The notes: generated by a model from the sequence alone, not told the origin. A stretch of DNA of 64,000 nt from Limihaloglobus sulfuriphilus (GCF_001999965.1 NZ_CP019646.1:2294001-2358000), one strand, 5' to 3'; shown: positions 3,138-61,266, counted from the stretch's first letter. Translations and numbers: made by a program.

Positions 3138-3476
3138 ATGGATAAAATCACACTAGAACAATTAACTCAAAAACAACAAAACCAGCTCCAGACTAAAATA
3201 CCTGTGAGCTACAATATCAACGAATATATCAACGACCTAAGCTCCTTTTACGACCAGATCGAGGACGTCATTGAAGAGGCTGAGCAGTACGTTATCAACA
3301 AGGACTACCAGGAGGCCGGAGACGCATACTCCACTGCCGCAAATCTCCTTGAAATCTATCAGGAACTTGGCAAGGGACATCTGCATCGAGCCAATTATCT
3401 TATCGAAGGGCATAACCAGAAACTCGAATACTACATGCCAGAGAGACTCTATGACTCGCTACCATCACAGGAGTAA
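3138..3476 (+). CDS. Small helical protein of the P-x2-Y / P-x-RLY family
   Basis: A 112-aa acidic, probably all-helical protein without signal peptide or membrane segment. It is clearly related to the two small proteins encoded at 19,081 and 19,443. All three share a block P-x2-Y, then Y-I-x-D-[LVI]-S about eight residues on, a Q-I pair, and a C-terminal hydrophobic-P-x-RLY signature (here MPERLYDSL). I do not recognise the family. The gene is convergent with the HARE-HTH gene and separated from it by a hairpin terminator. Start at ATG 3138; the upstream sequence has a TATA-like box but no clear Shine-Dalgarno. Its recurrence beside mobile-element genes suggests element-encoded accessory proteins, but the function is unknown. 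Confidence 0.7.
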   Translation: MDKITLEQLTQKQQNQLQTKIPVSYNINEYINDLSSFYDQIEDVIEEAEQYVINKDYQEAGDAYSTAANLLEIYQELGKGHLHRANYLIEGHNQKLEYYMPERLYDSLPSQE

Positions 3477-3500: not shown

Positions 3501-3524
3501 AAAACCCCGACCTAAAGCCGGGGT
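3501..3524 (-). terminator. Intrinsic terminator between convergent genes
   Basis: Stem ACCCCG/CGGGGT (3504-3509 with 3519-3524) with a 9-nt loop. Read on the minus strand it is followed by TTTTCTTG, fitting termination of the HARE-HTH gene that ends at 3549. Confidence 0.6.
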
Positions 3525-3548
3525 CTTGAAAATTCTACTTTTCTTTTT

Positions 3549-4073
3549 CTACTTCTTTAAAGCAAACCTGCCGGGGAGCGTCTTTACAACAAGTGCATCC
3601 TTGCCCTTATTCTTAATCTCACGCAGGAAAGTTGCATAAAGCGTGTTCGCCGGGGTCTTGCCGCCCTTTGCTGGCTTCCATAAGTCCTTTTCCATTGCCT
3701 GCTCAACTATCGCCGCACAGCTCATCGCCATATCCGAATCCTTGAGGATTATTAATGCCACCTCAAAAAGCGATGCTTTTTTCGGAGCCTTCTGCTTATC
3801 CTTGGGACTCGGTTTTGCCTTCGCCTTCTTGCCAGCCTTTGGTTGCGGTGCTTTCTTAGGCTTTTCTGCCTTGGCCTTTGGCTCAGTATTCTTCTCCGGC
3901 TCGGCGGGGCCTTCTAAACGCTCAGGCGTCTTGATATGCACCTTTTTGCCGGTCGCGGTGTTAAGTGCTTCCCAGCCTTCCTTTGCATGCTTGCCGGTAA
4001 TCTTGACGGCTACAGTACGGTTGGTAACCTTTGCAAGGTAGAGTCCATTGATTTTAATCTCTGATTTTTTCAT
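3549..4073 (-). CDS. HARE-HTH domain protein with basic linker
   Basis: A 174-aa protein in three parts. Residues 1-53 form a small beta-rich domain (starts MKKSEIKINGLYLAKV). Residues about 54-100 are a Lys/Pro/Ala-rich, probably disordered linker that should bind nucleic acid non-specifically. The C-terminal 75 residues fit a HARE-HTH winged helix (SLFEVALIIL, then AAIVEQAMEKDLW, then TLYATFLREI and a final GRFAL). HARE-HTH modules are known from restriction, modification and chromatin proteins and have been proposed to read modified DNA. Next to a methyltransferase operon that role would make sense, but this is inference. An AGGAGA Shine-Dalgarno precedes the ATG at a good distance. Confidence 0.7.
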   Translation of the reverse strand: MKKSEIKINGLYLAKVTNRTVAVKITGKHAKEGWEALNTATGKKVHIKTPERLEGPAEPEKNTEPKAKAEKPKKAPQPKAGKKAKAKPSPKDKQKAPKKASLFEVALIILKDSDMAMSCAAIVEQAMEKDLWKPAKGGKTPANTLYATFLREIKNKGKDALVVKTLPGRFALKK

Positions 4074-4187
4074 AATTAGTTCTCCTGTATAGGGTTATCA
4101 AAATATTTACTTTTAACACGACCCGAACTTACATCAATCTCGCAAGGCTATCAAGTCAATTAAGTACTTATTTTGCAATAACTTGCA

Positions 4188-4682
4188 TTATTCTGCATAA
4201 TTCTTTAGATATTCCCTGAGCCTCTCGGGTATATGGTCAAATAACGATACATGCAGCTCTTCAATCCCCTGATATGCATCACTGTATTTACCATTCTCAA
4301 CATCGTTAAGCACATCGGTAAGGTGTTTGACATTCTGTTCGTAATGAAGGGCTAGGCTGGTATCCACCGCCTCGATTGATCTCTCACTTACATACCGGCA
4401 ATACCCGATCCGGTCAGCCAATTGCTCAAGGTCGTCAGAAAAGCCCGGATAAGTATTGGTCTTTCTATATTGTTCAAGCTGTTTTTCAATATCCTCCGCC
4501 GGGATATTCGATGCAAAACCGTAGATATTAATCAGCTCTTCTTTGATATGGCCTAAATCGCCGACATGTGTCCAGTTTAGAATATTGTCGCCCTGATCGA
4601 GTTCCTCCCTTAACAGGCTCATTAGATTACTGATATCCTGCTTCCTGTCGTTATATGTTTGGTTTAGTTTGTCGTCTGTCAT
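4188..4682 (-). CDS. Small acidic helical protein, last gene of the HerA operon
   Basis: A 164-aa, highly acidic, predicted helical protein starting six bases after the HerA-like gene on the same strand, so very likely co-transcribed. An AAAGGG Shine-Dalgarno lies before the ATG. The C-terminus, with a DHIPERLREYL segment, resembles the IPxRLY ending of the small family at 3,138, 19,081 and 19,443. The N-terminal signature of that family is not obvious here, so kinship is only possible. No catalytic motif, signal peptide or membrane segment is visible. It could be a regulatory or adaptor subunit of the ATPase. Confidence 0.6.
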   Translation of the reverse strand: MTDDKLNQTYNDRKQDISNLMSLLREELDQGDNILNWTHVGDLGHIKEELINIYGFASNIPAEDIEKQLEQYRKTNTYPGFSDDLEQLADRIGYCRYVSERSIEAVDTSLALHYEQNVKHLTDVLNDVENGKYSDAYQGIEELHVSLFDHIPERLREYLKNYAE

Positions 4683-4688
4683 TATGAT

Positions 4689-6767
4689 TTACCCTTTGAA
4701 ATACCGGGACTTGTCCTTTAGCACCATCTCAACCCTGCCCTGAATAAGCAGGCCTTTTTTAGCCAGTGTTTTTTCGATCCTTTGCATAGCCATCTCGCTG
4801 GTAGCAACCATTACAACCGTGTCGGCCAACTGGAGACCCTGTGTGAGGTTTTTAACAAAATCCGAGCTACCAGTCTCTATCTCAAAGATAAGCCGCTCTT
4901 GACCCTTTTGTGCGGCAAGGTCGGCAAACCCTGCCCCAACCGGTGCCTCAACCTGAACCGTATAGCCAAGCTCCGCCAACTTCTTTGCATACCGATACTT
5001 CCAGTAGGCATGTTCCATCGATTCCTTACGGAGTTTATTATCCTCGTTAGATGCCTGTATGTGGTCTATAACAAGCCCGACATCAATCCTGCCATTCTTC
5101 TCAGGTTTAACCGGGCTATGAAGCATTGCATCGAGCTTGGTAGGCAAGCCGAACACCCGTTTGCCTTCATCTGCAATCTCGAGTATTACCTTGCGGGTAA
5201 TGCCTACTGCAACCGCTCTCTGTCTGATCCAACCAAGAACAAGTAGCTCCTGTTTGAGTCTGTTGGCCTTGCCAACGCTCAAACCTATACGCTTGTATCT
5301 TACCCTTACTCCATCATCAGGGTGAACAATAATATCATTAACAAGTAGAAGGACACCGTCTTCTACCCCGGCAAAGCCGGTATCAGCAAGCCGACCCCGC
5401 GAACCCCGCCCGGTATCAGTGCAAATGCCCTGACGCTGGGGGAACCGCGGAGATTTGCCCTGGGCCAGCCGAAGCAGCACCTCATCAGTGATCTTACCCT
5501 TGTCAAGTTTCAGGTGATCAAAGCTAACAATAAAGGGTCTCTGCCAGGTGCTTTGGAGTTTTACGATTCCTACACCTATTTCAAGGCGGGTTAAATAGTA
5601 TTTTTCGGTATCGTCAAGCAATGATAATCCTGCCGCCTTTGTTATATCTGCCGGGTCTTTGAGATTCATAATCACACTTGTGTGAACGTTGCCAAGGACT
5701 GTCGGACTTATCTGTGAGGGCTGCTGGTCAACAAGGATTACTCCAATCCCAATCTCCCTTGCCTGTCTTAGAAGTTGCTCGGTCAGTGTCTCGGTTGATC
5801 GCTGGGTTCGATATAGTACATTATGTGCCTCTTCGAGTATTAGTACAAGGCTTAATTTCTCACGCTGACTGCTCGAGAGCTTTACCTGGTATATCCATGA
5901 GAATAGCAATGGAATGATGAATTTTCTGGTTGAGATTGAAAGACTGTCAAGTTCGATTACATTGATCGAAGTTGCAAGTCCTATAGTAAACATCTGCTGT
6001 TCCTTAGAACTTCCTCCCGTAAGGTTTGCCAATTTTAGTTCTTCCAAAGCTCGCATCGCAGTAGTCTTCCAGCCCCTGCTTCGTGATTTATCACTTTTAG
6101 AAGATTCAGATATCAGTTCCAACTCATCAATTAATTGATCCACTGATGGAGCAACCCCGAGTTTCATATTAGCCGAAACAAGAGCCTTCTGAATCAGGCT
6201 TCTTGCCCCATCACCAAGGGTATAGGCCTCAGCCATCACATCAACCACATGCTGAATATAGACATTAAGCTCTACTCCAGGAGGTGGTATAAACGGGTTA
6301 AACGGAAAAGAATTCACCTTTCGCCCGGCTGTATAGACATTAACCTTTTTTGTTACATGCGGCAAAATCTCGCGACCGTTTCGTTTCCAGTCCAGAAAAA
6401 GCGTTGGCATATCTCGACCTATCAACTGCCTGAATATGTTCATCACTATATTACTCTTGCCTGCACCGGAACGTCCAAAAATGGCCGTGTGTTGCAATAG
6501 TTGTTCATAATTAAGTCCAAACACCTGCCGTTTATGATCATACCAGACATTTCCAAGCTTAATCGGTTTATTCGTAATTTTATATGGTGGTAGTGAAAGG
6601 ATCATAGCTTTCCTGGGATCACCGAATATACGGTATGCCGTTGAAATGATCTGTTTTTCAATCAACTGACGCATCGAGATGTCTCCCATATCACGAGCCT
6701 TCATCCAGGTTTTGATCTTATCCGGTATAATCGGCTCAAGCCACCTCGCTAATTTTTCGATGTTCAT
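4689..6767 (-). CDS. HerA-like ATPase with winged-helix and C-terminal nuclease-like domain
   Basis: A 692-aa protein. Walker A GRSGAGKS is at residues 98-105, Walker B VLILEEAH near 308-315, an arginine segment RQAREIG near 334-340 and a DQQPS sensor at about 347. This is the HerA/FtsK/VirB4 DNA-translocase layout. A winged helix follows around residues 455-525 (SVGKANRLKQELLVLGWI). The last 120 residues look like a PD-(D/E)xK nuclease fold: GFAD at 613-616, then FEIETG at 628-633, giving D...E-x-E rather than E-x-K. The start overlaps the preceding stop in ATGA, so translation is coupled. Ring-shaped HerA ATPases pump DNA and team with nucleases in repair and phage defence; here both modules are in one chain. 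Nuclease activity is inferred. A plasmid or virus DNA-transfer ATPase is the alternative. Confidence 0.82.
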   Translation of the reverse strand: MNIEKLARWLEPIIPDKIKTWMKARDMGDISMRQLIEKQIISTAYRIFGDPRKAMILSLPPYKITNKPIKLGNVWYDHKRQVFGLNYEQLLQHTAIFGRSGAGKSNIVMNIFRQLIGRDMPTLFLDWKRNGREILPHVTKKVNVYTAGRKVNSFPFNPFIPPPGVELNVYIQHVVDVMAEAYTLGDGARSLIQKALVSANMKLGVAPSVDQLIDELELISESSKSDKSRSRGWKTTAMRALEELKLANLTGGSSKEQQMFTIGLATSINVIELDSLSISTRKFIIPLLFSWIYQVKLSSSQREKLSLVLILEEAHNVLYRTQRSTETLTEQLLRQAREIGIGVILVDQQPSQISPTVLGNVHTSVIMNLKDPADITKAAGLSLLDDTEKYYLTRLEIGVGIVKLQSTWQRPFIVSFDHLKLDKGKITDEVLLRLAQGKSPRFPQRQGICTDTGRGSRGRLADTGFAGVEDGVLLLVNDIIVHPDDGVRVRYKRIGLSVGKANRLKQELLVLGWIRQRAVAVGITRKVILEIADEGKRVFGLPTKLDAMLHSPVKPEKNGRIDVGLVIDHIQASNEDNKLRKESMEHAYWKYRYAKKLAELGYTVQVEAPVGAGFADLAAQKGQERLIFEIETGSSDFVKNLTQGLQLADTVVMVATSEMAMQRIEKTLAKKGLLIQGRVEMVLKDKSRYFKG

Positions 6768-7201
6768 GGAGTAAGTAGTCTATGCTTGCCGGCGAGGCCG
6801 ATAAGCCGTTCAAGACATCTGCTTTGCCTGTCAAAGAAGTCAATGTCTATACGCTGCCGTCTATCGTCAAGCTGAGAAAGCCTTATCATTAATTGTGCTC
6901 TTCGTGGGTCAGCAGCCCTGACCTTATCTATCCCGAGTGGATGCAGCTGCCCAAGATCGGTGTTAATCTGGCATTCCTGCCTTAGAATCTGCTCCTTGAT
7001 ATGCCTGTGCATCTGTTTTAGCTTGGTTAGCTGCCAGATCACAAGCTGGGTCTCATGTTCAATACCTTTAACTATGCCATCCTTATTAGTCCCTGAATCC
7101 TCGCTGATAATATCGCCGAGTATATCATCGACCTTATCCATAACATTCGTTTGTGCGGGATAACAGGGCGGCTGATTACGGATGTAGTTAAGAGCGTTCA
7201 A
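6764..7201 (-). CDS. Small helical protein between methyltransferase and HerA-like ATPase
   Basis: A 145-aa charged helical protein, probably coiled-coil in its second half (many Arg, Gln, Leu; HIKEQILRQE, RRAQLMIRLSQLDDRRQR). The start chosen is TTG at 7201, because a strong GGAGG Shine-Dalgarno (7210-7214, minus strand) lies eight bases upstream inside the methyltransferase end; no ATG serves as well. It overlaps the HerA-like gene by ATGA. I do not recognise the family. Its fixed place between two DNA-acting enzymes suggests a linker or specificity subunit, but nothing in the sequence proves this. Confidence 0.65.
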   Translation of the reverse strand: MNALNYIRNQPPCYPAQTNVMDKVDDILGDIISEDSGTNKDGIVKGIEHETQLVIWQLTKLKQMHRHIKEQILRQECQINTDLGQLHPLGIDKVRAADPRRAQLMIRLSQLDDRRQRIDIDFFDRQSRCLERLIGLAGKHRLLTP

Positions 7202-7204
7202 AAG

Positions 7205-7942
7205 TTAATCCTCCAGGTCAGACAATCGCTTATTACCCATCTTGATATAGTCCTTATTGAGCTCAAAACCTATGAATCTGCGGCCATGTTTTCGAGATGC
7301 AGCTGCGGTTGTCCCGCCGCCCATAAACGGATCAACCACCAAATCGCCGGGGTTTGAGCTTATCATTACAAGCAGTTCTATGAAATCCTGGGGCTTTTCT
7401 GTAGGATGCTTAGTGTGTTTTTTACCGTTTGTATACACGAATACGTTAATACAGTCCTGCTGGCTTAGAAAATTGAAAGTTACATCCTTATACCCTGAGT
7501 TTTTGCCTTTTGAAGGCTTGGTCAAGTACATGCAAAGCTCAAACCCGCTTCGCCAGTTACGTTTTGAAAAGCTGGGGAGCGGGTTCTTCCTGACCATAGC
7601 AAGCACCCGGCGTAGCTGAAAACCTCTTTCTCTGGCCTTGTGTATAAAGTAGCCATTATCCTCCTGTGCTGTGAACATGTATAATGAACCGCCGGGCTTT
7701 AGCACCCGGTAAGATTCAATCAGTACCCGGCATATTAGAATCTTGTAATCAAACGGATGAAACATATCCCAGTCACCCCATGCTGCCTCAGTGCTTTTTA
7801 GACTTCCCCGCTGAATTGTAAGGGCGTTTGCCGATGCGATGTTATACGGCGGGTCTGTTACAATCAAATCTACGCTATCGTTTTCAAGCTTCTTTAGCCC
7901 TTCAAGGGCATCCATTAGGTGAATTCTATTGATCTCTATCAT
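7205..7942 (-). CDS. Beta-class DNA adenine-N6 (or cytosine-N4) methyltransferase
   Basis: A 245-aa protein with the catalytic motif DPPY at residues 30-33, a KPGGSLYMF segment at 82-90, HPTEKP at 179-184 and the AdoMet-binding motif DPFMGGGTT at 204-212. Motif IV before motif I marks the beta class (N6/N4 amino methyltransferases). DPPY is most often adenine-specific. It would methylate DNA at a short recognition site, protecting it or marking it. The start overlaps the stop of the winged-helix gene in ATGA. No classical restriction enzyme is adjacent. The HerA-like protein with its nuclease-like end is the only candidate partner in the operon. Confidence 0.92.
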   Translation of the reverse strand: MIEINRIHLMDALEGLKKLENDSVDLIVTDPPYNIASANALTIQRGSLKSTEAAWGDWDMFHPFDYKILICRVLIESYRVLKPGGSLYMFTAQEDNGYFIHKARERGFQLRRVLAMVRKNPLPSFSKRNWRSGFELCMYLTKPSKGKNSGYKDVTFNFLSQQDCINVFVYTNGKKHTKHPTEKPQDFIELLVMISSNPGDLVVDPFMGGGTTAAASRKHGRRFIGFELNKDYIKMGNKRLSDLED

Positions 7943-8502
7943 TGTGAAGGTGAGGCTGTTCTCCTGAGCAGTGTCTGGAGCTGTCTACCAAGAACCGTTA
8001 GCTCGTATTCAGGATATACGCCTCTGGTATCAATTGTCCGAATGATATCGCGAGCCTTTAGCATTGGGATATTGTTCCTGATATTGTTGGCACTGATCCT
8101 TGTCTTAGGCAGAATATGGCGTAAGTAGCGTTTGATTCCTGCAGGACTCCTGGGGCTGTCCAGAGCTAAGATTATTGCACTTCGCTGGCTAAAACACACA
8201 TAACCGTAGGCATTCCAGTCGATATCTGGCTCATAATAAGGCTCAATTCTCGGGAAAAGCTGTTTTCGAATAGATTTGCCTGTCTTAGTAAGACCGAACA
8301 GTCTGCTTCTGGTAGCTTTGGGATTCAGGCAAAAAAGCAAACCTGCCTTGTACATTTCTACGATAACATCACTACAGTCACGTCTGCTGATACCCGTCCG
8401 TTTATACAACTGGAAGGCCGTCATGGGCTGAGCGAGCTGTTTTAAGAGTTTCATTCGTCTTAGGCTCTTTAGAAGCCACTGACTGGCCTTGTCAAATTCC
8501 AT
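7939..8502 (-). CDS. Winged-helix DNA-binding protein, first gene of the operon
   Basis: About 187 aa from the ATG at 8502; the frame is open further upstream to 8559. That longer reading was rejected because a TATAAT box lies between the two starts. The N-terminal half reads as a winged helix (FDKASQWLLKSLRRMKLL, then AFQLYKRTGISRRDCSDVI as helix-turn-helix, then a basic wing). A second, similar wing-helix block may follow around residues 110-170. It is likely the operon regulator or a DNA-binding subunit of the methyltransferase/HerA set. It overlaps the methyltransferase start in ATGA. There is no obvious Shine-Dalgarno, which fits a short-leader transcript. Confidence 0.7.
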   Translation of the reverse strand: MEFDKASQWLLKSLRRMKLLKQLAQPMTAFQLYKRTGISRRDCSDVIVEMYKAGLLFCLNPKATRSRLFGLTKTGKSIRKQLFPRIEPYYEPDIDWNAYGYVCFSQRSAIILALDSPRSPAGIKRYLRHILPKTRISANNIRNNIPMLKARDIIRTIDTRGVYPEYELTVLGRQLQTLLRRTASPSQ

Positions 8503-8530: not shown

Positions 8531-8673
8531 CACTTTGAACCGATTAGGGGAGTGAACATAGAACAACTTGTTAAGCGATAATTACCCTTACCGTCCGGCG
8601 GCGATTAAAATTACTGGAAAATGCTGAATATAGGTTAAACTATCTGAAATCTTGTTAAGTGAGGAGATTTCAG

Positions 8674-10164
8674 ATGGTTACAGACAAGCAGGTAAGGACA
8701 TTATTCAAAATGCAGAACAAACACAGGTTTAAGTATCAGGCGGCTGATGCAGCCGGCATTGGTGTAAAGACCGCCCGTAAGTATCTAAACAGCGGTAAGT
8801 TACCCAGTCAATGCCGTCCGGTTCACAACTGGCGTACCCGCAAGGACCCGTTTGAAGCCGACTGGCCTTATATCGAACAGATGCTGTTTGACAGCCGGGG
8901 TACACTGGAGGTCAAAAGTATATTTGACGATCTTCAGGGCAAATTTCCCGGCAGGTATCAGAATGGTCAATTACGAACGCTTCAGCGTAAAGTCAAGGCC
9001 TGGAAGGCCCTTTACGGCCCATCTAAGGAGGTGTTTTTCTCCCAGCATTATGAACCTGGCCAGTGGTGCTGCTCCGATTTCACCAGCATGAACAAGTTAA
9101 ATATCACGATAGCGGGCCGGCCGTTTGAGCATAAGATATACCACTTTGTGATGTGCTATTCGAACTGGCAATCGTTTTCTATCTGTCCCTCAGAGAGTTT
9201 TGAGAGTCTCTCACAGGGCCTTCAGGACGCTCTATGGAGGCTTGGCGGCGTACCCTGGTATCACAGGACTGATAATCTTACCAGTGCCGTCAAGAAAGTG
9301 GGCAGTCCCGAAATCTTTACGGACAAATACCAGGGGCTTGCCGACCATTACGGATTTGAACCTGTAAAGACCAACCCTGCCAGTCCTCACGAGAACGGAG
9401 ATGTCGAGAAGAGCAACCATCTGTTCAAGAAGGCGGTAGATCAGCATCTTATTATGCGGGGCAGCCGGGATTTTGTGAGTCTTGAAGAATACGAGAAGTT
9501 CCTTCGTAAGATTACGGATCGGATGAACCTCAACAACCATGATCGTCTTCTCGAGGAACTGAAGGTTCTGGGTGATCTTCCGCACCTTCGTTATGACGAC
9601 TTTGAGTCCAGAGAGTGCAAGGTCAGCCGGGCCGGCACCATCCGTCTGCTGCACAACACCTATTCGGTACACAGCAGGCTTGTAGGCGAGACGGTTAATG
9701 TACGTATATATGCCGACAACCTTGAGATCTGGTATGCACAGAGTTGTATCGAAGTTCTACCTCGTCTGCGTGGTGAGAACGGCCACCATATCAACTACAG
9801 GCATATAATCGACCAGCTGGTAAGAAAACCCGGGGCATTTGAGAATTACATTTACAAGGATGATCTGTACCCTTCAAGCATCTTCCGGATAGCTTATGAC
9901 ATACTTCGCGAAGGCCTGAGTATCAGGGAGGCCAACAAGCAGTACCTCAAGATACTTGAACTGGCTGCCAAAGAAGGTGAATCTCTGGTCAATGAGGCTT
10001 TAAGATTCCAGATCAATACCGATGAAAACATCAACTTCGAGGTTGTAAGAGAGTTCGTTGAGGCCGGTACCAGGCCGCCTGATCCGACAGTGGTCTGTAT
10101 CGAACTACCAGAGCCGGCTTATTACGATGCACTGTACGAGGAACCGCTATGCGTATGTCTGTGA
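8674..10164 (+). CDS. istA: IS21-family transposase IstA
   Basis: A 496-aa DDE transposase. The N-terminal helix-turn-helix (about residues 10-50, QAADAAGIGVKTARKYL) binds the element ends. The catalytic core is recognisable from the CSDFTSMN block (first Asp), the HRTDNLTSAV block (second Asp) and the HENGDVEKSNHLFK block (Glu). Start at ATG 8674 because GAGGAG lies nine bases upstream; a GTG start at 8659 would sit over that site. It overlaps istB by 16 bases, the normal IS21 arrangement that couples transposase and helper ATPase. Confidence 0.93.
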   Translation: MVTDKQVRTLFKMQNKHRFKYQAADAAGIGVKTARKYLNSGKLPSQCRPVHNWRTRKDPFEADWPYIEQMLFDSRGTLEVKSIFDDLQGKFPGRYQNGQLRTLQRKVKAWKALYGPSKEVFFSQHYEPGQWCCSDFTSMNKLNITIAGRPFEHKIYHFVMCYSNWQSFSICPSESFESLSQGLQDALWRLGGVPWYHRTDNLTSAVKKVGSPEIFTDKYQGLADHYGFEPVKTNPASPHENGDVEKSNHLFKKAVDQHLIMRGSRDFVSLEEYEKFLRKITDRMNLNNHDRLLEELKVLGDLPHLRYDDFESRECKVSRAGTIRLLHNTYSVHSRLVGETVNVRIYADNLEIWYAQSCIEVLPRLRGENGHHINYRHIIDQLVRKPGAFENYIYKDDLYPSSIFRIAYDILREGLSIREANKQYLKILELAAKEGESLVNEALRFQINTDENINFEVVREFVEAGTRPPDPTVVCIELPEPAYYDALYEEPLCVCL

Positions 10165-10910
10165 ACAAACATCTAACAGAGCTGCTAAAGGAGCTTCATC
10201 TGCCGGTATTCAGGGAATACTATCAGGAGTTGGCTAAGAAGGCCGCGGCGGATGAGCTTAGTTATGAGGAATACCTCTTTGAGCTTGCTCAGCGGGAATG
10301 TGAGCTTCGTCGTGTGAATAAGGTCGCCCGGCTTGTAAAGGCATCAAAGCTGCCGCTGAAAAAAACGCTTGATACGTTTGAGCTTAACCGGCTGCCGCTG
10401 AAGATACGCAGACAGGTCAAGGTGCTTGCAGAAGGCGGCTTCGCAGACCGCAGGGAGAACATACTGGCCTTCGGCAAGCCCGGCAGCGGCAAGACACACC
10501 TGCTATGCGGTATATGCCATGCTCTTGCCCGGCAGGGAAGGAAGGTGTACTTCGGCACCTGTGACCTGATGGTGCAGGGACTGTTGAGGGCTAAAGAAGA
10601 GCTTGTGCTGGACAAGCTGCTCAAGAAGCTTGGGAAGTTCGATGTGCTGATGATCGATGACTTCGGATACGTCAAGCAGAACCGTGAGGAGATGGAAGTG
10701 CTGTTTACCCTGCTGGCATACCGGTATGAACGCGGCAGTGTACTGATCACCAGTAACCTGCCGTTCAGCAAGTGGGAGGTGATCTTCAAGGATCCAATGA
10801 CCACCGCTGCCGCTATCGACCGGCTGGTGCACCACAGCGTGATACTGGAACTCAACGTGCCCAGCTACAGGGCAGAACAGGCCAGAAAACGCAAGAAACA
10901 GGGGCAATAA
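10149..10910 (+). CDS. istB: IS21-family helper ATPase IstB
   Basis: A 253-aa AAA+ ATPase of the DnaC/IstB type. Walker A is FGKPGSGKTHL near residues 104-114, Walker B VLMIDDFGY near 167-175, and a sensor ITSNLPF near 202. IstB remodels target DNA and stimulates IstA. The gene overlaps the 3' end of istA. It is quite divergent from the IstB at 21,027-21,794, so the two IS21-type elements are not recent copies of each other. Confidence 0.93.
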   Translation: MRMSVNKHLTELLKELHLPVFREYYQELAKKAAADELSYEEYLFELAQRECELRRVNKVARLVKASKLPLKKTLDTFELNRLPLKIRRQVKVLAEGGFADRRENILAFGKPGSGKTHLLCGICHALARQGRKVYFGTCDLMVQGLLRAKEELVLDKLLKKLGKFDVLMIDDFGYVKQNREEMEVLFTLLAYRYERGSVLITSNLPFSKWEVIFKDPMTTAAAIDRLVHHSVILELNVPSYRAEQARKRKKQGQ

Positions 10911-11896: not shown

Positions 11897-12018
11897 ATGA
11901 CATAATAACAGTGCCTTGTTTATATTATTATCTGGTATTAAGATTATGGCATGTTTATTGATTCATACTAATCAAATCGGTAGTTCATTTATAAATGGAC
12001 TCAATCCAACATTGGATT

Positions 12019-12204
12019 ATGAAAACCATTAATCAATGCAAACAGTGCAAGCATCCGTTGCGACTCGGACAGAATGTAATTAAACTTGAGGTTGGAGTAA
12101 TCGGCCCTCGAAATTTCATCAGCCTTGATAATGAAATGTTTTTTTGTAGTAAGGAGTGTTTGAGATCGTTTATAGGAGTAACATATAAAAAACTACAACT
12201 GTAG
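12019..12204 (+). CDS. Small zinc-binding (treble-clef-like) protein
   Basis: About 62 aa from ATG 12019 (the frame also allows ATG 11995). A C-x2-C pair (CKQCKHP) and a later C-x3-C pair (FFCSKECLRSF) make a four-cysteine zinc site of the MYM/TRASH-like treble-clef kind. No other domain is visible. It could be a DNA- or protein-binding adaptor. It stands alone between two minus-strand genes. Confidence 0.5.
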   Translation: MKTINQCKQCKHPLRLGQNVIKLEVGVIGPRNFISLDNEMFFCSKECLRSFIGVTYKKLQL

Positions 12205-16376: not shown

Positions 16377-17501
16377 ATGAAGACTGAATATAGGATGTAT
16401 GGCCGTGATTCTGAAAAACTCGCTGACTCTATTTCTGATGCTGACAATAAGATACTGGCCGGCTATCTGCGTTACTGCTCAACTACTGCGGGTCCTAAAA
16501 AAGTCAATGATTATCGGCGATACATGTTGCAGTTTATGGATGTTATTGAAAAACCCCTTGATAAAATCACGAAAGATGATGCTATTGATTTTTGGGCTTT
16601 AGTGAATCATTCAACTCATGAACTCCAAACCAAGATAATGATGCGAAGGACTGTGAAGCGTTTCTTAAAATGGTTTTATCGTGACCTTGATATGCTTGAG
16701 GCTTTGAAAAATACAAAGGGGCCTTTAGTTAACCCCAAGAAAATAAATAAGAGTGTGTTGTTCAAACCAGATGAGATAAGACGAATGCTTCATGCTGCTG
16801 AACGAATACGAGACAAAGCATTATTGATGCTTTTAGTAGAAACTGGCGCTCGCCCGCAGGAGATACGTGACTTGAAATGGGGTGATGTGAATTTGGATGA
16901 AAAAGAAGTACATTTATATTCCTCCAAAACTGCCCGAGATCGGGATTTGCCGATACTTCATTCGTTTCCCTATATATTTCACTGGTACGAAAATTGGGCC
17001 TTCCCCGATCCTATGGCAGAAGATTATGTGTTTCCGGCATTGGTGAAACACTATTCTTCACGGAATAAATCAATTTCAACCAGCTACATGAATCGGATAA
17101 TTCAATCACTAGCAAACAAAGCAGGTGTAAATCGGAGAGTAAATACATATCTACTCAGACATACAAGGCTTACCGAAGTGTATAAGCTCGGGGTCAAAGG
17201 GGTTGAACACAATAAATTTGCAGGTCATACACCGGGAAGTAAACATCAAAATGTATATGTGCATCTTGATAATCGTGACCTTAAACAGGCTCTGATGAAA
17301 AATGTATATTCGAAGGATGTAGCTGTAGCTAATGAGAACTTTCAAACTCAACCTGTAAACAACACCGGCACAGCCTCGATCCAAATGATCCAACAACAAA
17401 TGCTCTTCCTCCAGCAGGAGCTATTAAAGCTCCAGGCGGTTGATGTCGCCGGTGGGGCGGCAAACCGTCCAAAGCAACAATTGCCCTGCAATATAATTTA
17501 G
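16377..17501 (+). CDS. Tyrosine recombinase (integrase)
   Basis: A 374-aa recombinase. The N-terminal 100 residues are a SAM-like core-binding domain. The catalytic part shows the first Arg in TGARPQEIRDL near residue 163, HTR within LLRHTRLTEVY near 262, His in FAGHTPGSKH near 285 and the nucleophile Tyr in QNVYVHL near 297. The tail beyond about residue 320 is Gln-rich and variable. This is a XerC/XerA-type integrase that would mobilise the surrounding element. A GAGGTGG Shine-Dalgarno stands close (4 nt) before the ATG. Downstream are an inverted repeat across the stop codon and a terminator. Confidence 0.9.
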   Translation: MKTEYRMYGRDSEKLADSISDADNKILAGYLRYCSTTAGPKKVNDYRRYMLQFMDVIEKPLDKITKDDAIDFWALVNHSTHELQTKIMMRRTVKRFLKWFYRDLDMLEALKNTKGPLVNPKKINKSVLFKPDEIRRMLHAAERIRDKALLMLLVETGARPQEIRDLKWGDVNLDEKEVHLYSSKTARDRDLPILHSFPYIFHWYENWAFPDPMAEDYVFPALVKHYSSRNKSISTSYMNRIIQSLANKAGVNRRVNTYLLRHTRLTEVYKLGVKGVEHNKFAGHTPGSKHQNVYVHLDNRDLKQALMKNVYSKDVAVANENFQTQPVNNTGTASIQMIQQQMLFLQQELLKLQAVDVAGGAANRPKQQLPCNII

Positions 17502-18668: not shown

Positions 18669-19091
18669 ATGGGAGATTTAATCAAATCAACAAGCATTGA
18701 TTCTTTAATGGATCAACACGCAAAACAGGTATTTAAAACTGGCGATAATGCTGCACTAAAAGTTGTTTTAAACATGGCATACGATATGGGCATGCTCCGA
18801 GGTATCAGTTCTCATCCTCGCTACACTGAAATTGAGATTCAAGGAATGTCAGGACATTACGCAATTTTGAGCCGAAAACCATACTCTAATATGATTGATG
18901 TTGAGATTCTAACACCGGAAGTTGAGGTGAAAAGCAGTATTCCCGCAGATGATATTGCTCAAAGGTTAGTTGCAGCACAGCACGTTTATTCTGAGCTTGA
19001 AGATGTAAAAGATAATTTCTATGGCCTGGACTCGTATATTCGTCCTTTTGAACATATAACATACTTTGGAGGTAGCAAAATTGGACTCTGA
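18669..19091 (+). CDS. Hypothetical protein upstream of the small-helical pair
   Basis: A 140-aa soluble protein with mixed structure and no known motif (starts MGDLIKSTSIDSLM). A TATA-like TATATTAATA is centred about 25 nt before the ATG and no Shine-Dalgarno is visible, suggesting a nearly leaderless message. Its 3' end contains the GGAGGT ribosome site and start codon of the following gene, so the three genes from 18,669 to 19,802 form an operon. Confidence 0.6.
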   Translation: MGDLIKSTSIDSLMDQHAKQVFKTGDNAALKVVLNMAYDMGMLRGISSHPRYTEIEIQGMSGHYAILSRKPYSNMIDVEILTPEVEVKSSIPADDIAQRLVAAQHVYSELEDVKDNFYGLDSYIRPFEHITYFGGSKIGL

Positions 19092-19443
19092 TGGCGATCC
19101 CAGGCTTCCTGCTAGACTGGTATATCATCATCTAAACGAACAGCAACGAGAGTTTCTTAAATCTAAACTGCCGGAGAATTACCCGCTTCGTGACTACATC
19201 AGAGATGTCTCAGAACTGGAGTTTCAGATCGGCGAAATGGTAAGAGATGCACAATATCAAATCGAGTCACAGGAATATCTTGAAGCGAGCATGATGTTGT
19301 CCGGAGTTGCAGATATGCATGACATTTATACAGTTCTTCAGCGAGGAAAACCTGATTCGGCAAGAGTTTTAGCTAAGCACCTTGAAGAACAGGTAACAGA
19401 CTATATTCCGCCACGGCTTTATGACCGGCTATTTCGAGGGTGA
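19081..19443 (+). CDS. Small helical protein of the P-x2-Y / IPxRLY family
   Basis: About 120 aa from the TTG at 19081, chosen because GGAGGT (19068-19073) stands seven bases upstream; no ATG is available near. It shares with its neighbour and with the 3,138 gene a LPENYPLRDYIRDVSELEF-type block, QI at the end of that block, and the C-terminal IPPRLYDRLF signature. No known family or catalytic residues are recognised. It overlaps the gene before by 11 bases and the next by TGATG. Confidence 0.7.
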   Translation: MDSDGDPRLPARLVYHHLNEQQREFLKSKLPENYPLRDYIRDVSELEFQIGEMVRDAQYQIESQEYLEASMMLSGVADMHDIYTVLQRGKPDSARVLAKHLEEQVTDYIPPRLYDRLFRG

Positions 19444-19802
19444 TGGGCAAGATGACAATTTATCTACCACGCAAACTTGTCTATGAAGAATTGAGTGATG
19501 AACAGAGGGCATACTTGCAAGAACGAATACCGGATAATTATAATCTTAGGGAGTATATCCGGGACATTTCTGAGCTTGAAGAGCAGATCGGAAGTCTATC
19601 TTTGGAAGCAAGAGAGTTTGCAGAATCCAAAAACTATACACTTGCGGGAATGACCTATCTTGACATAACTGATTTAGATAAGATTTACAATACGCTTAGA
19701 GTCGGTAATACAATTGCAGCAAAGAAACTAATTGATGAGCTTGAAACTGCTAATCGGGAGCGGATTCCGAGCAGGCTCTATAGGAAATTCTATGAGGAGT
19801 AA
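19443..19802 (+). CDS. Small helical protein of the P-x2-Y / IPxRLY family, tandem paralogue
   Basis: A 119-aa paralogue of the preceding protein: IPDNYNLREYIRDISELEEQI in the middle and IPSRLYRKFYEE at the end. The ATG at 19443 overlaps the preceding stop as TGATG (ATG 19452 and GTG 19440 are alternatives). The protein is acidic and helical, without membrane segments. The tandem pair plus the single copy at 3,138 shows a small expanded family in this island. Function unknown. Confidence 0.7.
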   Translation: MGKMTIYLPRKLVYEELSDEQRAYLQERIPDNYNLREYIRDISELEEQIGSLSLEAREFAESKNYTLAGMTYLDITDLDKIYNTLRVGNTIAAKKLIDELETANRERIPSRLYRKFYEE

Positions 19803-31593: not shown

Positions 31594-34500
31594 ATGGGCA
31601 AGAAAAAAACAATAGATGGCGCAAAAGAAGCTGTTACCGGCTATGAATTCCAATTTGTCTGGACTGCAAGGCGATGCCTGTCAATGTTGAAACATAATTC
31701 TAATATCCAACAAGTTTGCGTTGAAAGCATGGCATATAAAGATGAGATAGATTTTGGTCAAGGCCCTGAAACTTTTTTAGGAGTAGATACATCCGAGTAT
31801 CATGGTGGAAAGACCTTTAGTAAGGCAAGCAAAATTATAATATCTCAATTGAAATGCGGAATAAGCAAATCAAACAAACAATGGACTATATCCCAAACAT
31901 GTCAAAAGAAGAGAAGTTTGAGATCATCGGTTATTGGACGACTATCTTCTACATTCGAAGGATATTACAAGAAGAAATCCCCAAAGGTTATCGCCCAAAA
32001 ACTTCGCTTGCAAATCGTTTCTAACCGTGGATTAAATATTAAGTCTCAAAAACTCGTATCCAAAGCACAGAACTTGCTTAATCGCAATATGGGCAAACCA
32101 AATAAGTGGCGATTTGCCAAACTAAAACAATCTGGCTTTTCTATAAATGAAAAAGCGGAGTTAGAGAAACTATACAAAGCGTCAGGTTTGGCTAGCAATG
32201 CTTTTTGTGTGTTTTTATCTTGTTTAGATTTAAGTAAATTGGGTATTGAATCTCCTATCCTACAACGGATTCATCTTGAAGAGGAAATCAAAACATTTGA
32301 CAGGGCATTTCATAATAGTGTACTGCTAAAACTGTGTGATCTGATAAGAGAATTTGTTCAAAAAGATGGTGGAACAATAACAATTGACAATGTCCTCAGT
32401 TGCTTTAATACCAACAAAGATAATTTTTTTCCTGCTCCATGTCTGATCGAATCACCTTCACTCCTTATTGAAACAGAAGATTGTCAAAGTTTAGCAAAAC
32501 TCATTGCAAATCCGGATACAAATAAATTACTAGTTCACGGGGAAGCCGGGATTGGAAAGTCTTTAACGATGAAATCCTTGCAGAAATATTTGCCTCAAGG
32601 TTCTGTCAGCGTAGTTTATGATTGCTATGCTGGTGGAAAAACGGAGACTCCGAATAAATACCGATTTCCAGATGAGGTTTTATGTACTCAACTAGTAAAT
32701 GAGTTATCTTTGTTGGTTGAACAGAATGTTTATCTTATAAGAAACCGCACTGACCAGATTGATGCTTGGAACACACTTGAATTAGCTATCAATAAAGCCG
32801 CAGAAAAACTATCCAGGCAAAATGCACTTCTTGTATTAATTGTAGACGCTGCTGATAATGCAGTCGATTCCTATGATAGAAATAAAGAAATTACTGATTT
32901 CAAAAGCTTTATTCCAAAACTCTGGAATATATCTTTACCGAAAAATGTCAAGTTAGTATACACATGCCGAACATTCAGAAAATCAAAATTAAAAGCTCCA
33001 AAAGGCATTAAAGATTTTAAATTAAAGGGTTTCACCAAAAACAATTCGACTGAATATCTTCACAACTATTTTCCACATGCTGCCCCTGAAATTGGAAGCG
33101 ATTTTCACGATAAGACATGCGGCGTACCACGACATCAAAATTATTGGCTGGAAGAATTACATAAAAAATGTAAGTCTGACGCTTTTGCTGAAATTAAAAC
33201 GACAAAAATCTTTGGTCTGACAGATTTATACAACGATTGGTTGATGTCGGCAGAAACGGTTTTACCCTCTAAAGTATCAAGTAAAAAAGTAATAAGTTTG
33301 CTAAGAGTGGCAGCTAGCCCTATTTCGATATCAGTAATTTCTAATTGCCTGGGCATAGAAGAAGAAACAGTATTAGCATTTTGTCAGGGATTGGGACCGG
33401 GGATTGTTTTAAATGACCAAAAAGAACTTCGTTTTCGAGATGAAGATTACGAAACATTTCTTGATGAAAAGCTAAAAGGCACTGACATCAAAGTTGCGCA
33501 TGACGCACTTTCGCACCATTGTTTAAGAACAATAGAATCTGATGTCTATAGCGTTAAATATGCATGTATGCATTTATTTAATGCGGAGAGACATGAGGAA
33601 TTACTTAGGATTGTCACAGGAAAATCAGGAATTAATTTTATTGATAATCCTATTGAGCAAACAGTGTGCGAACAAGATCGTATGATTTATGCATTTAAAA
33701 GTGCCGCAATTCTAAATAATTCTACAGCGGCACTACAATTATTATTTGAAGTTGGACGAATCAACAGGACAGATTATGTTTTAAGTGAAACAATGACAAG
33801 TTTTCCAGAACTAGTTATTCAACACAGTTCATATCAAACATTGGAAAATAGTTTGCAGAAAAATAATAGCCATAGCGGGAACATTTATTTTCGAATTGCA
33901 GCGGAACTCTCTAAAACCACACATAATAGAAATGTTGCAGAATCTAATTATGCAAAAGGGAAAGCATGGCTTCAGCTTCATATAACAGAAATGAAGAAAC
34001 ACGATTGGCGAGGATTTCAGTATACTATTAAGGACAGTGCAGCAGAAGCTCTTGCAGCAATGAGCCTTTATGGCATAAAGCAGGCTAAACAAGTTTTGCG
34101 TTGCTGGGTCAACTCCAATGATAGACTTCAAAGTATATATGAGTTCTTCAAACGGCTTAGTATCCAAAATGATCGCAGTTATGTATTAAAAACATTCAAC
34201 AACTTCTCATCCTCTACATTGGATATGGTTGCTGCTATTGCAGGAATGTATGAGGTTGGATACAAGCCCTCAAAAACCAAAATTGAACAACTCACTATAA
34301 AATTACAAAAATGGTTTTTAAAAAATCGCAATAATCACGATGAAATTGGACTTTGGATTATTTCATTCCTTGAATTAGCAGCCAAAGTCGGTGTTTCGAA
34401 AACAATATTATTAGATATTATCAAATATGTAAATCTACAAAACAACAATAGTATATACCGTTGGTTATCTGTAAATGAGTGGTATGACCATCACCATATG

Positions 34501-37500
34501 TTTGCTAAATTTTTGGCATTTAAAAGTACCTTGAAAAATGAAAATTTAAGAATAGAGGAATTATTCCCAAAAGACATAGAGAAATTCAATTCTAGTAGTT
34601 ATAGTAGCTCTTCAGAATATCAGAGAAGTATAAGACAAATAAAATTACTACTTCCAGTATACACATTTATATCTGAATCTTTTTTAAAGAACCGTTCAAT
34701 AAATACTATAACTAATCAGCTAAAGAAATTAATCAGCAATTGGACACAAAATAGATACAAACATTGGGATAGACATGAACCGCTATACGAAGTTTTTGTT
34801 ACGAATGCCATCAATATATTAGTCAAGACTAACGGTTCAGAACCAACATTAGTTGACCAGTTACTAGAACCCTGTAAAGATATCATAGGATATAACCCAT
34901 GTAACCTCTATTTATCAGTAGCTGACTTATTGTCACGTCGAAAAGAATACCACGATATAGCATTGGAACTTATTGGTAAAGTCAAAACTGAATGGTGTAA
35001 AAAAGATTTTCGTGCCTCAGATACTGTTCAACGACTTATGAAATGTTCAGTTATTCTAAGTCATATTGATATGGACATATCAAAGCAATACTTTGATGAT
35101 GCATTTGTTGCAGCTTCTGGGATTGATGATGATGCGTCATACTATCTCAAAAGCTTAGCGAACCTTTCAGAATATTGCTCACATCAAACACCTATAGAAG
35201 AGCGTTCTTTAGTAGCAAAAAAACTTAAAGTTGCAATTGAGCAATACTGGCCAATAATGGAAGAGGAAGAGCGTATTCCCTGGGATGAATATGTTAAAGC
35301 AATTGCCACACTCGATTCAAATATAGGCTTAAATGCAGTTTATGAAATGGACAAAAAAGGTTGGTTGGATATTACTCAAGTATCATCCAAATTTGCTTCT
35401 GGTCTTATAACAGGCAAACAGATAGATCAAATATATTCTCATGCATTTCACCAGTTCAACACTATAGACAAAAACTATTTGTGTAATTCACTAAAGGTTC
35501 TTAAAGGAATATCATCTGAGAACCCGATAATCACTACCCAATTATTCGAAAGAGTTGCCAACGATATTAGGCGAGATTCACCGATTGAAGAACGTTCATA
35601 TCTATGCAATCAACTAGCAATATGGGGCAAGTATAACAATATGCCTCCTGCTCTGATTAAGGAATTAACAAATAGTTATGTCTTTTATGAAAAAAGAGAA
35701 AACTGGATTAACACTGATCATGACAATCAAATCAAAACCGAAAAACATATTGACCTTAGTGAAAAATGGTTAATAAAGGCAAAAGCCAGAGGCTCTGATA
35801 AATTAGTCATTTTAAAAGGAATCATAGAGGACAATGATTTGTTGGGAGAGCAAATAATATCTTTAGTTGTTGAAATCAGCCAATTCATTCGAGGTAGCAA
35901 AAGAATTGCTTTTCTTAATATTCTAACCAGCCAGATTCCAGATTCATTTAGCTATTACCGAACCATATTGCCGAATATACTAAATAATCTGATCACCAAG
36001 TGGTGTGAAACCCCTGGAATATCAGAATGGGCAAAAGAAAATATCCCACTATATATAGATAACAATTTTAATGACATACTTGGCTACGACTATGATATTT
36101 CACCGCATTTCCGAGATCTGATTGAAAATCAAGTATTTTCAAACGATGAACGAACTAATGTTATACTTCCAGCTCTGGCAAATAACGCACCACAGCTATC
36201 TGCTCGATCAGCATATAAAACGGCATGTTTATTAGGACGTTATTTATCCGAAGATAAACTTGTGTCAACCCTTCAAATATTACTAAAAAAAACGCCCTCT
36301 CCAGCTGATAATCTAGAGGAAAACAACATTTCCAATTTGGCTAAATTCATTTACAAATTATTAGAACAGCCGGATAATCGTATGCGTTGGCGAGTTTTTC
36401 ATGTAGCACGGAACATGTTATACTTAAGACCAGAACCTCTACTAGCCGAGCTTGTCAATCTAACTTTCAGTAAAGAAGGTAAAATGTGGATGTCTGCACG
36501 AGAGTGGCTATTGTTTCTTTTACTCCATATTGCACACATAAACCCTAAATCGCTTCTTCACTATGCTCCAAGAATATACGAACATGCCTCTGACCCAGAT
36601 TTTCCACATGCCGGCATGCAGGAGCTCGCGAAAAGAACCTTAATGATTCTCCAAAGATTTAACGGTTCACTTTTGACAAATAAACAATTTAATTATTTAT
36701 CGCTTTTAAACGAGCCACGTCATGTGATTTGGCCGAAACAAAATAGGTATACTCGCCGTGGAAAACACCCAAATCCTGACAAAAAATGGCGTTTTTCTTT
36801 TGATACCATGGACACATTTCCATACTGGTATTCACCACTCGGGCACTGTTTCGGCCTGCATAGATGCGATGTAGCAGTACGAGCAGAGTCTTGGATATGC
36901 GACAAATGGAAAGTCACCTCAAATGACTGTATGAAATATTCGCATAAAAAAGTACGAGGAACTGATTATAATTTATTTGGACATCGACACGGATCACATC
37001 CTACAATTGAAACACTTTCAACATACATTGAACGTCATGCTATGCATATGGCAGCAGGAGAAATGATTCGTGAATTACCAATTACACCTGAACCATCTGA
37101 TGAATATGGTAGTTGGGGATATTGGATATCAAGAAATTGTTTTGATGCAGACCCTCTTGTTACCTGCGATCTACATTGTCCAGTGCCATTACACAGATTT
37201 ATGCATGGCGTCCCAGATATTGACATAAATCCAAGTGAAGCTTTAACTATGGACTTTTTTTCAGATCAACTTTATGGGCTTATTGGAAAGTGTAATACAG
37301 AATGGCTGACCATAAGTGGATATTACACTGTAAGAATCTCAAACCATTCGTTTACTATAAGTATCGAATCAGCGTTGGTCACAGCAAAAACCGCAAGAGC
37401 TTTGGGGAGAGCAATGCTGTCATCTGAATATCCCCAATCGATAGGTATTCCTGAATTTAAAATATCCTATCAACACAATGTCAGTGAAATAGAAACACAA

Positions 37501-46004: not shown

Positions 46005-46006
46005 GA

Positions 46007-46477
46007 ATGAAAACACTTATTTTGTCTATAATAAGTCTATTTTCCTTTTTATTTCATGGATGCTATGAAAATAGTGATCTATACGGTAATACGAATATAG
46101 TATTTAAATGTGAAGGAAATCGTGTTCTATTAAACTTGGAACAGCAACAAAAACAAAGTGGGAATTCTACCATTATTACTGATTATATGGTAATTAAGGA
46201 AAGTTTGATTTTGTATAAAGATCGTTCGTATGAATGGGATTTTACAACAGAAAAATTAGGCAAAAAATCTTATAAAGGTATTCTACCTATACATGATTTT
46301 TCAATGTTAGTTGATTTACTTGATAAATCAGATTTTAAGAAAGAAAATGGCTTTTTGATCTATAGACATAATATGAAAGATAGTTCCCAATTTCTTCCAA
46401 AAAGTATAGCGATTCTGTGTAAATACATATATGACCAGCATATTGTTTCTGAATCTGCGAATTTGGCCGGCGGATAA
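46007..46477 (+). CDS. Lipoprotein in immunity position, 3' end replaced by RHS-like DNA
   Basis: About 156 aa from ATG 46007, preceded by GGAGG at a good distance just after the RHS stop. Lipobox FLFHGC (Cys near residue 19). The mature part has no known domain. Position directly after a variable RHS tip suggests an immunity protein acting in the periplasm. From about 46463 the DNA is a copy of the RHS gene (see 44836), so the last residues (NLAGG) come from that copy and the original end is probably lost. Whether the shortened protein works is unknown. Confidence 0.6.
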   Translation: MKTLILSIISLFSFLFHGCYENSDLYGNTNIVFKCEGNRVLLNLEQQQKQSGNSTIITDYMVIKESLILYKDRSYEWDFTTEKLGKKSYKGILPIHDFSMLVDLLDKSDFKKENGFLIYRHNMKDSSQFLPKSIAILCKYIYDQHIVSESANLAGG

Positions 46478-50272: not shown

Positions 50273-50432
50273 GGGTGGCACCGCAAAATAACCGGTGTCA
50301 CTTTGGTGTCACTCTCCAGTGTGTCCCGACTGTACTTTGAGTGAGTATTAGAGTGTATCCTGACTGTACTGCCAGATTTTAAGCCAAAACACGACTATAA
50401 ACCCTTATTTAACAATGACTTACAACCTATCC

Positions 50433-50480
50433 AAGGGACTGAAAATCCGTGTGTCGGCGGTTCAAATCCGCCCCTGCCCA
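50433..50480 (+). other. tRNA 3'-end-like fragment (attachment-site remnant)
   Basis: The T-arm GGCGG-TTCAAAT-CCGCC (50456-50472) is perfect and followed by CCTGCCCA, like an acceptor 3' strand plus discriminator. GGGACTGAAAATCCG upstream looks like an anticodon arm. The 5' half is missing, so it is not a functional tRNA. Such 3' fragments are left by integrases that use tRNA genes. A degraded relative lies at 61,230-61,262. Confidence 0.5.
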
Positions 50481-50844
50481 TTTCTTTTAAATCCCCATTT
50501 TTAGCATTATAAAGCGGGTTTCTTGTGTCGTTAAGGCTGTTTTTGGGGACCACTTCCAACCCCTTTGAAAGTTCGTATAAGTTCGCTTTTCCCCGCACTT
50601 GGTCGTCATTTGAGCCACAAATCTGCCCAATAGGTTCTGTATCACATGTCCCGGTAGCCTTGGCAGTTTGTTTACGGTCTGTTGTTTCAGACAATTTCGG
50701 CAGGTGCTGTAGTTGTCAAGCGGGTGTCGGACCACCTAAAATACGTTTGATGACTTAAAAATAAGGTTTTATTACTTTAAAAGTAATCTTCGATTTGGAC
50801 TTAAATGCATGCTTTTCATTCCTACATAGATAGACACTTGGCTT

Positions 50845-60822: not shown

Positions 60823-61266
60823 AGTTGTCAACCGTAAGTCGAACACCTGTAAATCGACAATTTTGACTTGATTTGCTCTTTCATAAGTTAATAGAGTGAC
60901 GGATATTCATGGCTCAATGAAATCACTGTAAGACGACAGCTACTCAAAAGGGCCTTTTAATTGCCATATTTCAGTGTCAGGGCGTACATTCCCCGCAATC
61001 ATTAGTATTACCAATGAATTTAAACGAGATTAACCGGCAGATTTCAAACGGTAGCCTGTTACTCGGGTCTGGCTGAAATATCGATTATCCTCGGCAAAAC
61101 CGGTGTCACTTTGGTGTCACTCTCCAGTGTGTCCCGACTGTACTTTGAGTGAATATTAGAGTGCATTCCGACTGCACCACCAGATTCTAAGCCAAAAATA
61201 GCCTGTAAATCTCTATTTTACAATAACTTACAACTACCTAAGGGACTAAAAATCCGTGTGTCGGGG
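60823..61266. mobile_element. Deleted copy of the 47,987-50,460 unit
   Basis: 60,823-61,083 repeats the non-coding end and last 18 codons of the IS3/IS481-like element (minus strand). It is joined directly at about 61,084-61,095 to a copy of 50,287-50,455 (AAAACCGGTGTCACTTTGG ... AAAATCCGTGTGTCGG). About 2 kb, including most of the transposase and the TPR gene, is missing. No gene remains in this stretch up to 61,392. Confidence 0.85.

Follow-up and report, generated by a model that had tools for sequence, protein, structure and literature searches.

Does the six-gene operon at positions 3549 to 8502 of the 64,000-nt window (the whole stretch of Limihaloglobus sulfuriphilus DNA that was analysed) encode a new DNA-modification and defence system, or does it belong to a mobile element? 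A sequence-only reading had proposed the former, in which a methyltransferase marks self and a HerA-nuclease attacks unmarked DNA, and had named a DNA-transfer module of a mobile element as the main alternative. An ORF check of the window recovered all six ORFs where they had been placed, all on the minus strand, in the order wHTH, beta-class DNA methyltransferase (MTase), small1, HerA-like ATPase, small2 and HARE-HTH. ATGA overlaps join wHTH to MTase and small1 to HerA, the gaps are 3 nt between MTase and small1 and 6 nt between HerA and small2, and HARE-HTH follows small2 after 114 nt. A consensus scan alone predicts a terminator-like hairpin (12-bp stem) directly 3' of HARE-HTH (3501..3527, minus strand), so the six genes may share one transcript that ends there. 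An IS21 element, to which the earlier reading had not referred, starts about 100 bp or less 5' of the wHTH start and may have displaced the operon's native promoter. No transmembrane segments were predicted in any of the six operon proteins, no type IIG restriction-modification enzyme was recognised among the six genes by Pfam, and neither Rfam nor tRNA searches across the window gave a match.

Pfam, a family alignment and an AlphaFold model indicate that the HerA-like translocase (4689..6767, minus strand; 692 aa) is fused to a winged helix and a PD-(D/E)xK nuclease. Its HerA/FtsK ATPase domain (residues 69-420; 5508..6563, minus strand) matches DUF87/HerA (PF01935) with 42.1 bits against a cut-off of 23.2, and carries the Walker A motif GRSGAGK; with its HerA-like fold this places it in the HerA branch of the HerA/FtsK superfamily. 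The top Foldseek matches of the ATPase are HerA 4d2i and DndH-C, with VirB4 also matched; SIR2-HerA, DUF4297-HerA and DndH are also among the nearest folds of the protein. The AlphaFold model, built from a profile of 30 relatives (mean pLDDT 85), shows in order a short helical N-terminus with no HAS-barrel match, the ATPase (about 69-420), a disordered linker, a winged-helix-like domain, a second linker and the nuclease domain. The winged-helix-like domain (residues about 470-540; 5148..5360, minus strand; secondary structure from AlphaFold, pLDDT about 81-90) is an addition to the earlier description. The best NCBIfam match of the whole protein is the DNA-import ATPase CedD (PMC11868833), at 3e-25 and below the model cut-off. 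None of the antiphage HerA models reaches its cut-off (NF042943, HerA_antiphage, gives 47 bits against 800), and the operon contains no SIR2 or DUF4297 partner.

A PD-(D/E)xK fold had been suggested for the C-terminus from a D...E-x-E block, and modelling bears this out. Residues 584-683 (4719..5018, minus strand) form an a-b-b-b-a-b fold in the AlphaFold model, with a pLDDT of 91 when modelled alone. Most of its closest neighbours among solved folds are PD-(D/E)xK enzymes, including EndoMS, Can2, BamHI (Z 7.4), Hjc, FokI and McrC. The motif is D-x12-E-x-E (D616, E629-x-E631), and H586, W589, E607, D616, E629 and E631 are invariant in 28/28 domain-bearing relatives, among which domain identity is 18-44%; two members of a sister clade, L078 and L081, do not have the domain. 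E631 is a third acidic residue where PD-(D/E)xK enzymes usually have lysine, and BamHI likewise has E in place of the usual K. A profile search of solved structures with this domain gave nothing significant, the best match being a Cas4 nuclease (E 0.049) with the catalytic motif aligned. The modelled PD-(D/E)xK fold is well supported, and nuclease activity of the domain is likely.

The gene upstream of the MTase, wHTH, encodes a protein with two winged-helix-like parts (7939..8502, minus strand, in an ORF open to 8559). Its start is probably 8502, as given earlier, because relatives align from there, and it shares 33-40% identity with the corresponding proteins of six relatives. The two small proteins of the sequence-only reading fared differently. 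Small1 (6764..7201, minus strand, with a TTG start, or ATG at 7141), a predicted helical coiled-coil partner of HerA, belongs to a conserved family with 20-23% identity to its relatives, and a profile comparison shows weak similarity with the partner protein found in the sister HerA clade. Small2 (4188..4682, minus strand; 164 aa) is represented by its own copy alone: database scans found no relatives, and six-frame searches of 22 close HerA loci placed it in one.

The distribution of the HerA-like protein and its neighbours points to the core of a mobile element. Relatives with both halves conserved are 41-45% identical across the whole alignment and have a patchy spread (15/98 order relatives and 16/392 of the phylum sample, with multiple HerA copies in some genomes). 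The family alignment retrieved 34 named genome loci, mostly from planctomycete MAGs, and the scattered members from other phyla may include binning errors. This search found no HerA locus on viral contigs, scanning viral and genome contigs with one HerA sequence found nothing, and plasmid and phage collections held no close HerA relative. Among the 22 close loci, which are mostly planctomycete, a tyrosine recombinase was found in 17 (two weak), a small zinc-finger-like protein in 16, wHTH in 17 and small1 in 17, compared with MTase in 3, HARE in 3, small2 in 1 and terminase in none; these counts come from six-frame profile searches, with several loci ending at a contig edge and some profile seeds drawn from the same loci. 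Locus L127 is a bare core of wHTH, small1 and HerA with overlapping frames, and in other copies unrelated cargo genes, varying by copy, lie between the core genes. Because wHTH, small1 and the HerA-nuclease recur with the integrase and the zinc protein, and MTase and HARE are rare, the module resembles a mobile-element core rather than a defence unit. On balance, the operon probably serves as motor module in a family of integrative elements that carry a tyrosine recombinase and occur mainly in Planctomycetota; MTase and HARE are accessory to it.

Both partners of this core are also present in the window. The tyrosine recombinase of the element family (PF00589) lies at 16377..17501 on the plus strand, and the zinc-finger-like protein at 11995..12204 on the plus strand. 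In relatives the latter is the divergent neighbour of wHTH; in the window the IS21 element separates the two. The operon is contained in a 58.8-kb island bounded by repeats of tRNA-Phe. In the organism's own complete genome (G000), the tRNA-Phe gene at G000:2285595-2285667 is adjoined by an integrase gene; attL (G000:2285623-2285669) falls outside the window, and attR, an exact 47-bp copy of the 3' half of the tRNA gene, is at 50436..50482 on the plus strand. The 39-bp core of this repeat has no further occurrence in the genome at ≤3 mismatches. An arm-type-like tandem repeat, GGTGTCACTTTGGTGTCACT, lies near attR (50294..50313, plus strand) and recurs both at attL and, at 61102, by a degenerate second attR. 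Over the 83 kb searched, paired GGTGTCACT repeats stand only beside the two island ends and a degenerate third repeat copy at 61243, as would be expected of integrase arm sites, which we infer them to be. The integrase at tRNA-Phe belongs to a different branch from the HerA-family integrase, and the latter is internal, which indicates that the island is composite. A search for direct repeats enclosing an inner HerA element together with its integrase (16377-17501) found none, and the inner ends were not located. In relatives, an integrase beside the HerA module adjoins tRNA genes for Val (L039, L061), Gly (L033) and Met (L037, where the match to the family integrase is only weak); flanking repeats were seen for the own composite island only, and a tRNA-adjacent integrase for four relatives. 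Several integrases and IS elements lie in the island, as do NACHT genes, of which one weakly matches the Cap4 nuclease.

The MTase (7205..7942, minus strand) is a predicted beta-class N6/N4 enzyme that matches PF01555 (N6_N4_Mtase) with 132 bits (cut-off 26.7) and holds DPPY and DPFMGGGT motifs. HARE-HTH (3549..4073, minus strand) matches PF05066 with 41.6 bits (cut-off 25.9) and has an N-terminal domain of about 60 aa. The domains named earlier for MTase, HerA and HARE-HTH all score above curated Pfam cut-offs. The window MTase sits between wHTH and small1, and its type recurs once: in L055 a 57% identical MTase likewise immediately precedes small1-HerA. The order and phylum samples yielded no other homologue at E≤1e-40. 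The HerA proteins of the window and L055 are about 42% identical, and the HerA tree leaves their sisterhood unsettled, so that one old gain of the MTase followed by losses and two separate gains both fit.

MTase and HARE-HTH occur in the identical three of the 22 close loci, a coincidence with a chance of 1 in 1540 if the loci are independent, the test having been set after the data were seen. HARE homologues are present in 36/392 phylum genomes, mostly without HerA; the idea that HARE is a generic multi-copy host protein was rejected for the own genome, where it is single copy. We examined 20 loci with the full HARE-HTH architecture (L161-L180) from 9 genomes, with 9/20 being copies in one genome. 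A PF01555-related MTase lies within 1.2 kb in 19/20 of them (8/9 by genome), and a phage large terminase (PF20454 type) is close by in at least 16/20. These counts support the sequence-only reading in placing the two together, and HARE-HTH of this type behaves as a prophage gene, accompanied by a methyltransferase and close to a motor for DNA packaging. These gene neighbourhoods support a real link between MTase and HARE, the pair standing beside predicted DNA pumps and not in a conserved restriction operon. HARE-HTH proteins have long been proposed as readers of modified DNA. The position of the pair beside terminase in prophage-like loci and beside HerA here suggests a substrate-marking role.

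Among the other explanations, a restriction-modification-like defence carried as cargo survives best. The MTase would mark self, the HerA-nuclease would thread and cut unmarked DNA, and HARE would discriminate modified DNA. HerA combined with a nuclease is a recurrent antiphage theme, and SIR2-HerA, DUF4297-HerA and DndH are near in fold; MTase stands directly 5' of small1-HerA in two diverged lineages, and NACHT genes share the island. However, no MTase was found in 19/22 close HerA loci, so in most carriers the nuclease must spare unmarked host DNA; the scores of all antiphage HerA models are below cut-off, and the core travels with an integrase instead. We consider this explanation unlikely. 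The co-occurrence counts do not support a conserved MTase-HerA defence unit, nor the joint conservation of methyltransferase and nuclease expected of restriction-modification or BREX-like defence. Of the marking-and-attack scheme the translocase-nuclease fusion and the MTase within the operon stand, but its free-standing character is weakened.

A second possibility is a HerA/FtsK capture system that acts against invaders without modification, in which wHTH and small1 would recognise foreign DNA or competing elements, for the HerA-nuclease to degrade, guarding the niche of the element, with MTase and HARE as unrelated cargo. It draws on the sister HerA clade, whose neighbours are a coiled-coil partner, an Orc/CDC6-like AAA+ ATPase and a membrane protein, a neighbourhood that resembles the Orc/CDC6-HerA-REase-wHTH systems (PMC10853773). 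An apparent membrane-protein cluster match in L083 was judged spurious once the sequence was read. The close clade, however, is tied to an integrase, with no Orc/CDC6 gene seen there, and the nuclease domain is missing in some sister members (L078, L081); a capture function appears improbable. That the genes are mere neighbours without joint function, piled up by mobile elements at one tRNA with MTase and HARE left from a decayed prophage, would suit a composite island holding multiple integrases and IS elements and the prophage nature of HARE homologues elsewhere, but is very improbable given the overlapping frames on one strand with a terminator-like hairpin only after HARE, the repeated MTase-small1-HerA order in L055, and the sharing of MTase and HARE by the same three loci.

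The motor-module reading, which the sequence-only reading had held as its main alternative, fits better: the core comes with an integrase and the island is bounded by tRNA repeats, yet no relaxase or type IV secretion (VirB4/VirD4) genes were recognised by Pfam among the island proteins scanned, which cover part of its ORFs. HerA would, as inferred from its family, be a hexameric pump for double-stranded DNA that small1 and the wHTH protein dock on element DNA, and the fused nuclease would trim or cut the DNA being moved. The work done would be DNA transfer (donation). The phage-like MTase and HARE-HTH would have been added to the window copy; methylation by the MTase probably falls on the DNA of the element itself and would shield it against restriction, its own nuclease or both, and HARE probably binds modified DNA. 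Counted against transfer are the lack of a membrane segment in the six proteins and of recognised relaxase or type IV secretion genes. Counted against the element reading as such is the company of the sister clade, an Orc/CDC6-like ATPase with a membrane protein; since these neighbourhoods lie near the anti-invader systems of PMC10853773, the HerA-nuclease may have a defence role. The operon is most fittingly classed as the motor operon belonging to integrative elements, with MTase and HARE as an accessory pair, not as a new free-standing restriction system. The elements form an apparently undescribed family, ranging over Planctomycetota and scattered other phyla, whose only recognised DNA-processing machine is a predicted HerA pump fused to a PD-(D/E)xK nuclease.

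Among characterised systems, the nearest parallel to this family is the integrative element ICETh1 of Thermus thermophilus. As described in PMC5365140 and PMC7767461, ICETh1 is inserted at a tRNA 3' end between 47-bp repeats and encodes, in a tight operon, a 392-aa integrase, the HerA-like TdtA, a NurA-family nuclease and a PF01555 methylase; this TdtA transjugation element makes its host donate DNA. As there described, ICETh1 shares with the present island the tRNA 3'-end site, 47-bp direct repeats and a tyrosine recombinase of about 390 aa, and with the operon a HerA-like ATPase, a nuclease and a PF01555 methylase; donation by the operon would follow TdtA and NurA. That the repeats are equally long is surely chance, but the shared list of parts is not trivial. 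TdtA is likened to this HerA by description and parts list, not by sequence. The ICETh1 nuclease is a separate NurA-family protein, whereas here it is fused to HerA in one chain; ICETh1 needs a type IIG restriction enzyme, absent from the six genes here; TdtA is membrane-bound, whereas the six proteins have no predicted transmembrane segment; and ICETh1 measures 14.9 kb compared with the composite 58.8-kb island. The wHTH, small1, zinc and HARE proteins present here are not described for ICETh1 in the passages of PMC5365140 and PMC7767461 considered here. If DNA is moved, Thermus-like relaxase-free gene transfer would be more widespread than thought.

The Orc/CDC6-HerA/FtsK-REase capture systems, which are mobile and read as anti-invader (PMC10853773), share HerA, a nuclease of restriction-endonuclease fold, winged helices and a mobile context with the operon. 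Their Orc/CDC6-like gene has a counterpart in the sister clade, whereas the close clade has the integrase, zinc protein and small1 in its place. SIR2-HerA (Nezha) and DUF4297-HerA likewise combine a HerA-family ATPase with an effector enzyme, but here there is no SIR2 or DUF4297 effector, the nuclease is at the C-terminus, and the N-terminus is short and helical without a HAS-barrel match. The Streptomyces conjugation ATPase TraB is a single dsDNA pump with a winged helix that needs no type IV secretion system. In being a single pump with a winged helix it is similar to the HerA-like protein, but TraB is not known to have a nuclease domain and is membrane anchored (partly PMC5365140). The planctomycete prophage-like loci L161-L180 have the same HARE-HTH architecture beside a PF01555 methyltransferase and a DNA-pumping motor with a nuclease; there the motor is a phage terminase, here it is HerA, and the MTase of L161, the one examined, carries a ParB_N domain. 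As a tentative and rather doubtful extension, MTase and HARE-HTH might be an interchangeable mark-and-read cassette that names the pump's own DNA, for terminase in planctomycete prophages and for the HerA-nuclease here, in which case packaging and transfer would share epigenetic substrate selection. Since HARE-HTH adjoins both DNA methyltransferases and DNA pumps in two settings that are unrelated, its proposed reader role can be tested concretely in bacteria.

Genes for ubiquitin-like conjugation (Ubl, ThiF/E1, JAB and a possible E2) are recurrent neighbors of HerA in both the close and the sister clades, and were identified at loci L052, L054, L061, L067, L083, L042, L044 and L081. A second, distant HerA-like gene, encoding 672 aa, lies left of the window at another locus of the same genome (L049), inside the same tRNA-Phe island. 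This gene and its partner, which encodes a 195-aa protein, adjoin two other genes (L049:12064-17647): one is E2-like (PF14462), and the other encodes a ThiF/E1 protein whose N-terminus is JAB-like. In the sister clade (L042, L046, L048, L050, L051, L072, L074, L076 and L081), a coiled-coil partner gene is located immediately upstream of HerA, and a multi-pass membrane protein is often present. An Orc/CDC6-like AAA+ ATPase is also linked to this clade.

Two NACHT proteins are encoded in the island (window 31594-37989 and 12-2750). The larger, of 2131 aa, shows a weak Cap4 nuclease match at its N-terminus, and a relative of the smaller one is encoded close to HerA at locus L033. A family of small helical proteins is present in three island copies (window 3138-3476, 19066-19443 and 19440-19802). 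A partial duplication (window 44836-47141) affects the gene for a large YD-repeat (Rhs-like) protein, in the region encoding its C-terminal portion.

The zinc-protein gene and the wHTH operon are divergent neighbors in relatives. Here, an IS21 insertion (window 8569-10910) lies between them, and the operon may have lost its native promoter through this insertion. Two right ends with common arm repeats occur in tandem (window 50294-50482 and 61102-61264). The tRNA repeat is broken in the second, suggesting that an older element is piled on the same site.

In planctomycete prophage-like loci (L161-L180), genes encoding a (ParB_N-)MTase, a HARE-HTH protein and the terminase large subunit adjoin each other, for example at L161:7147-12611. 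A single genome (G437) contains nine copies of this cluster.
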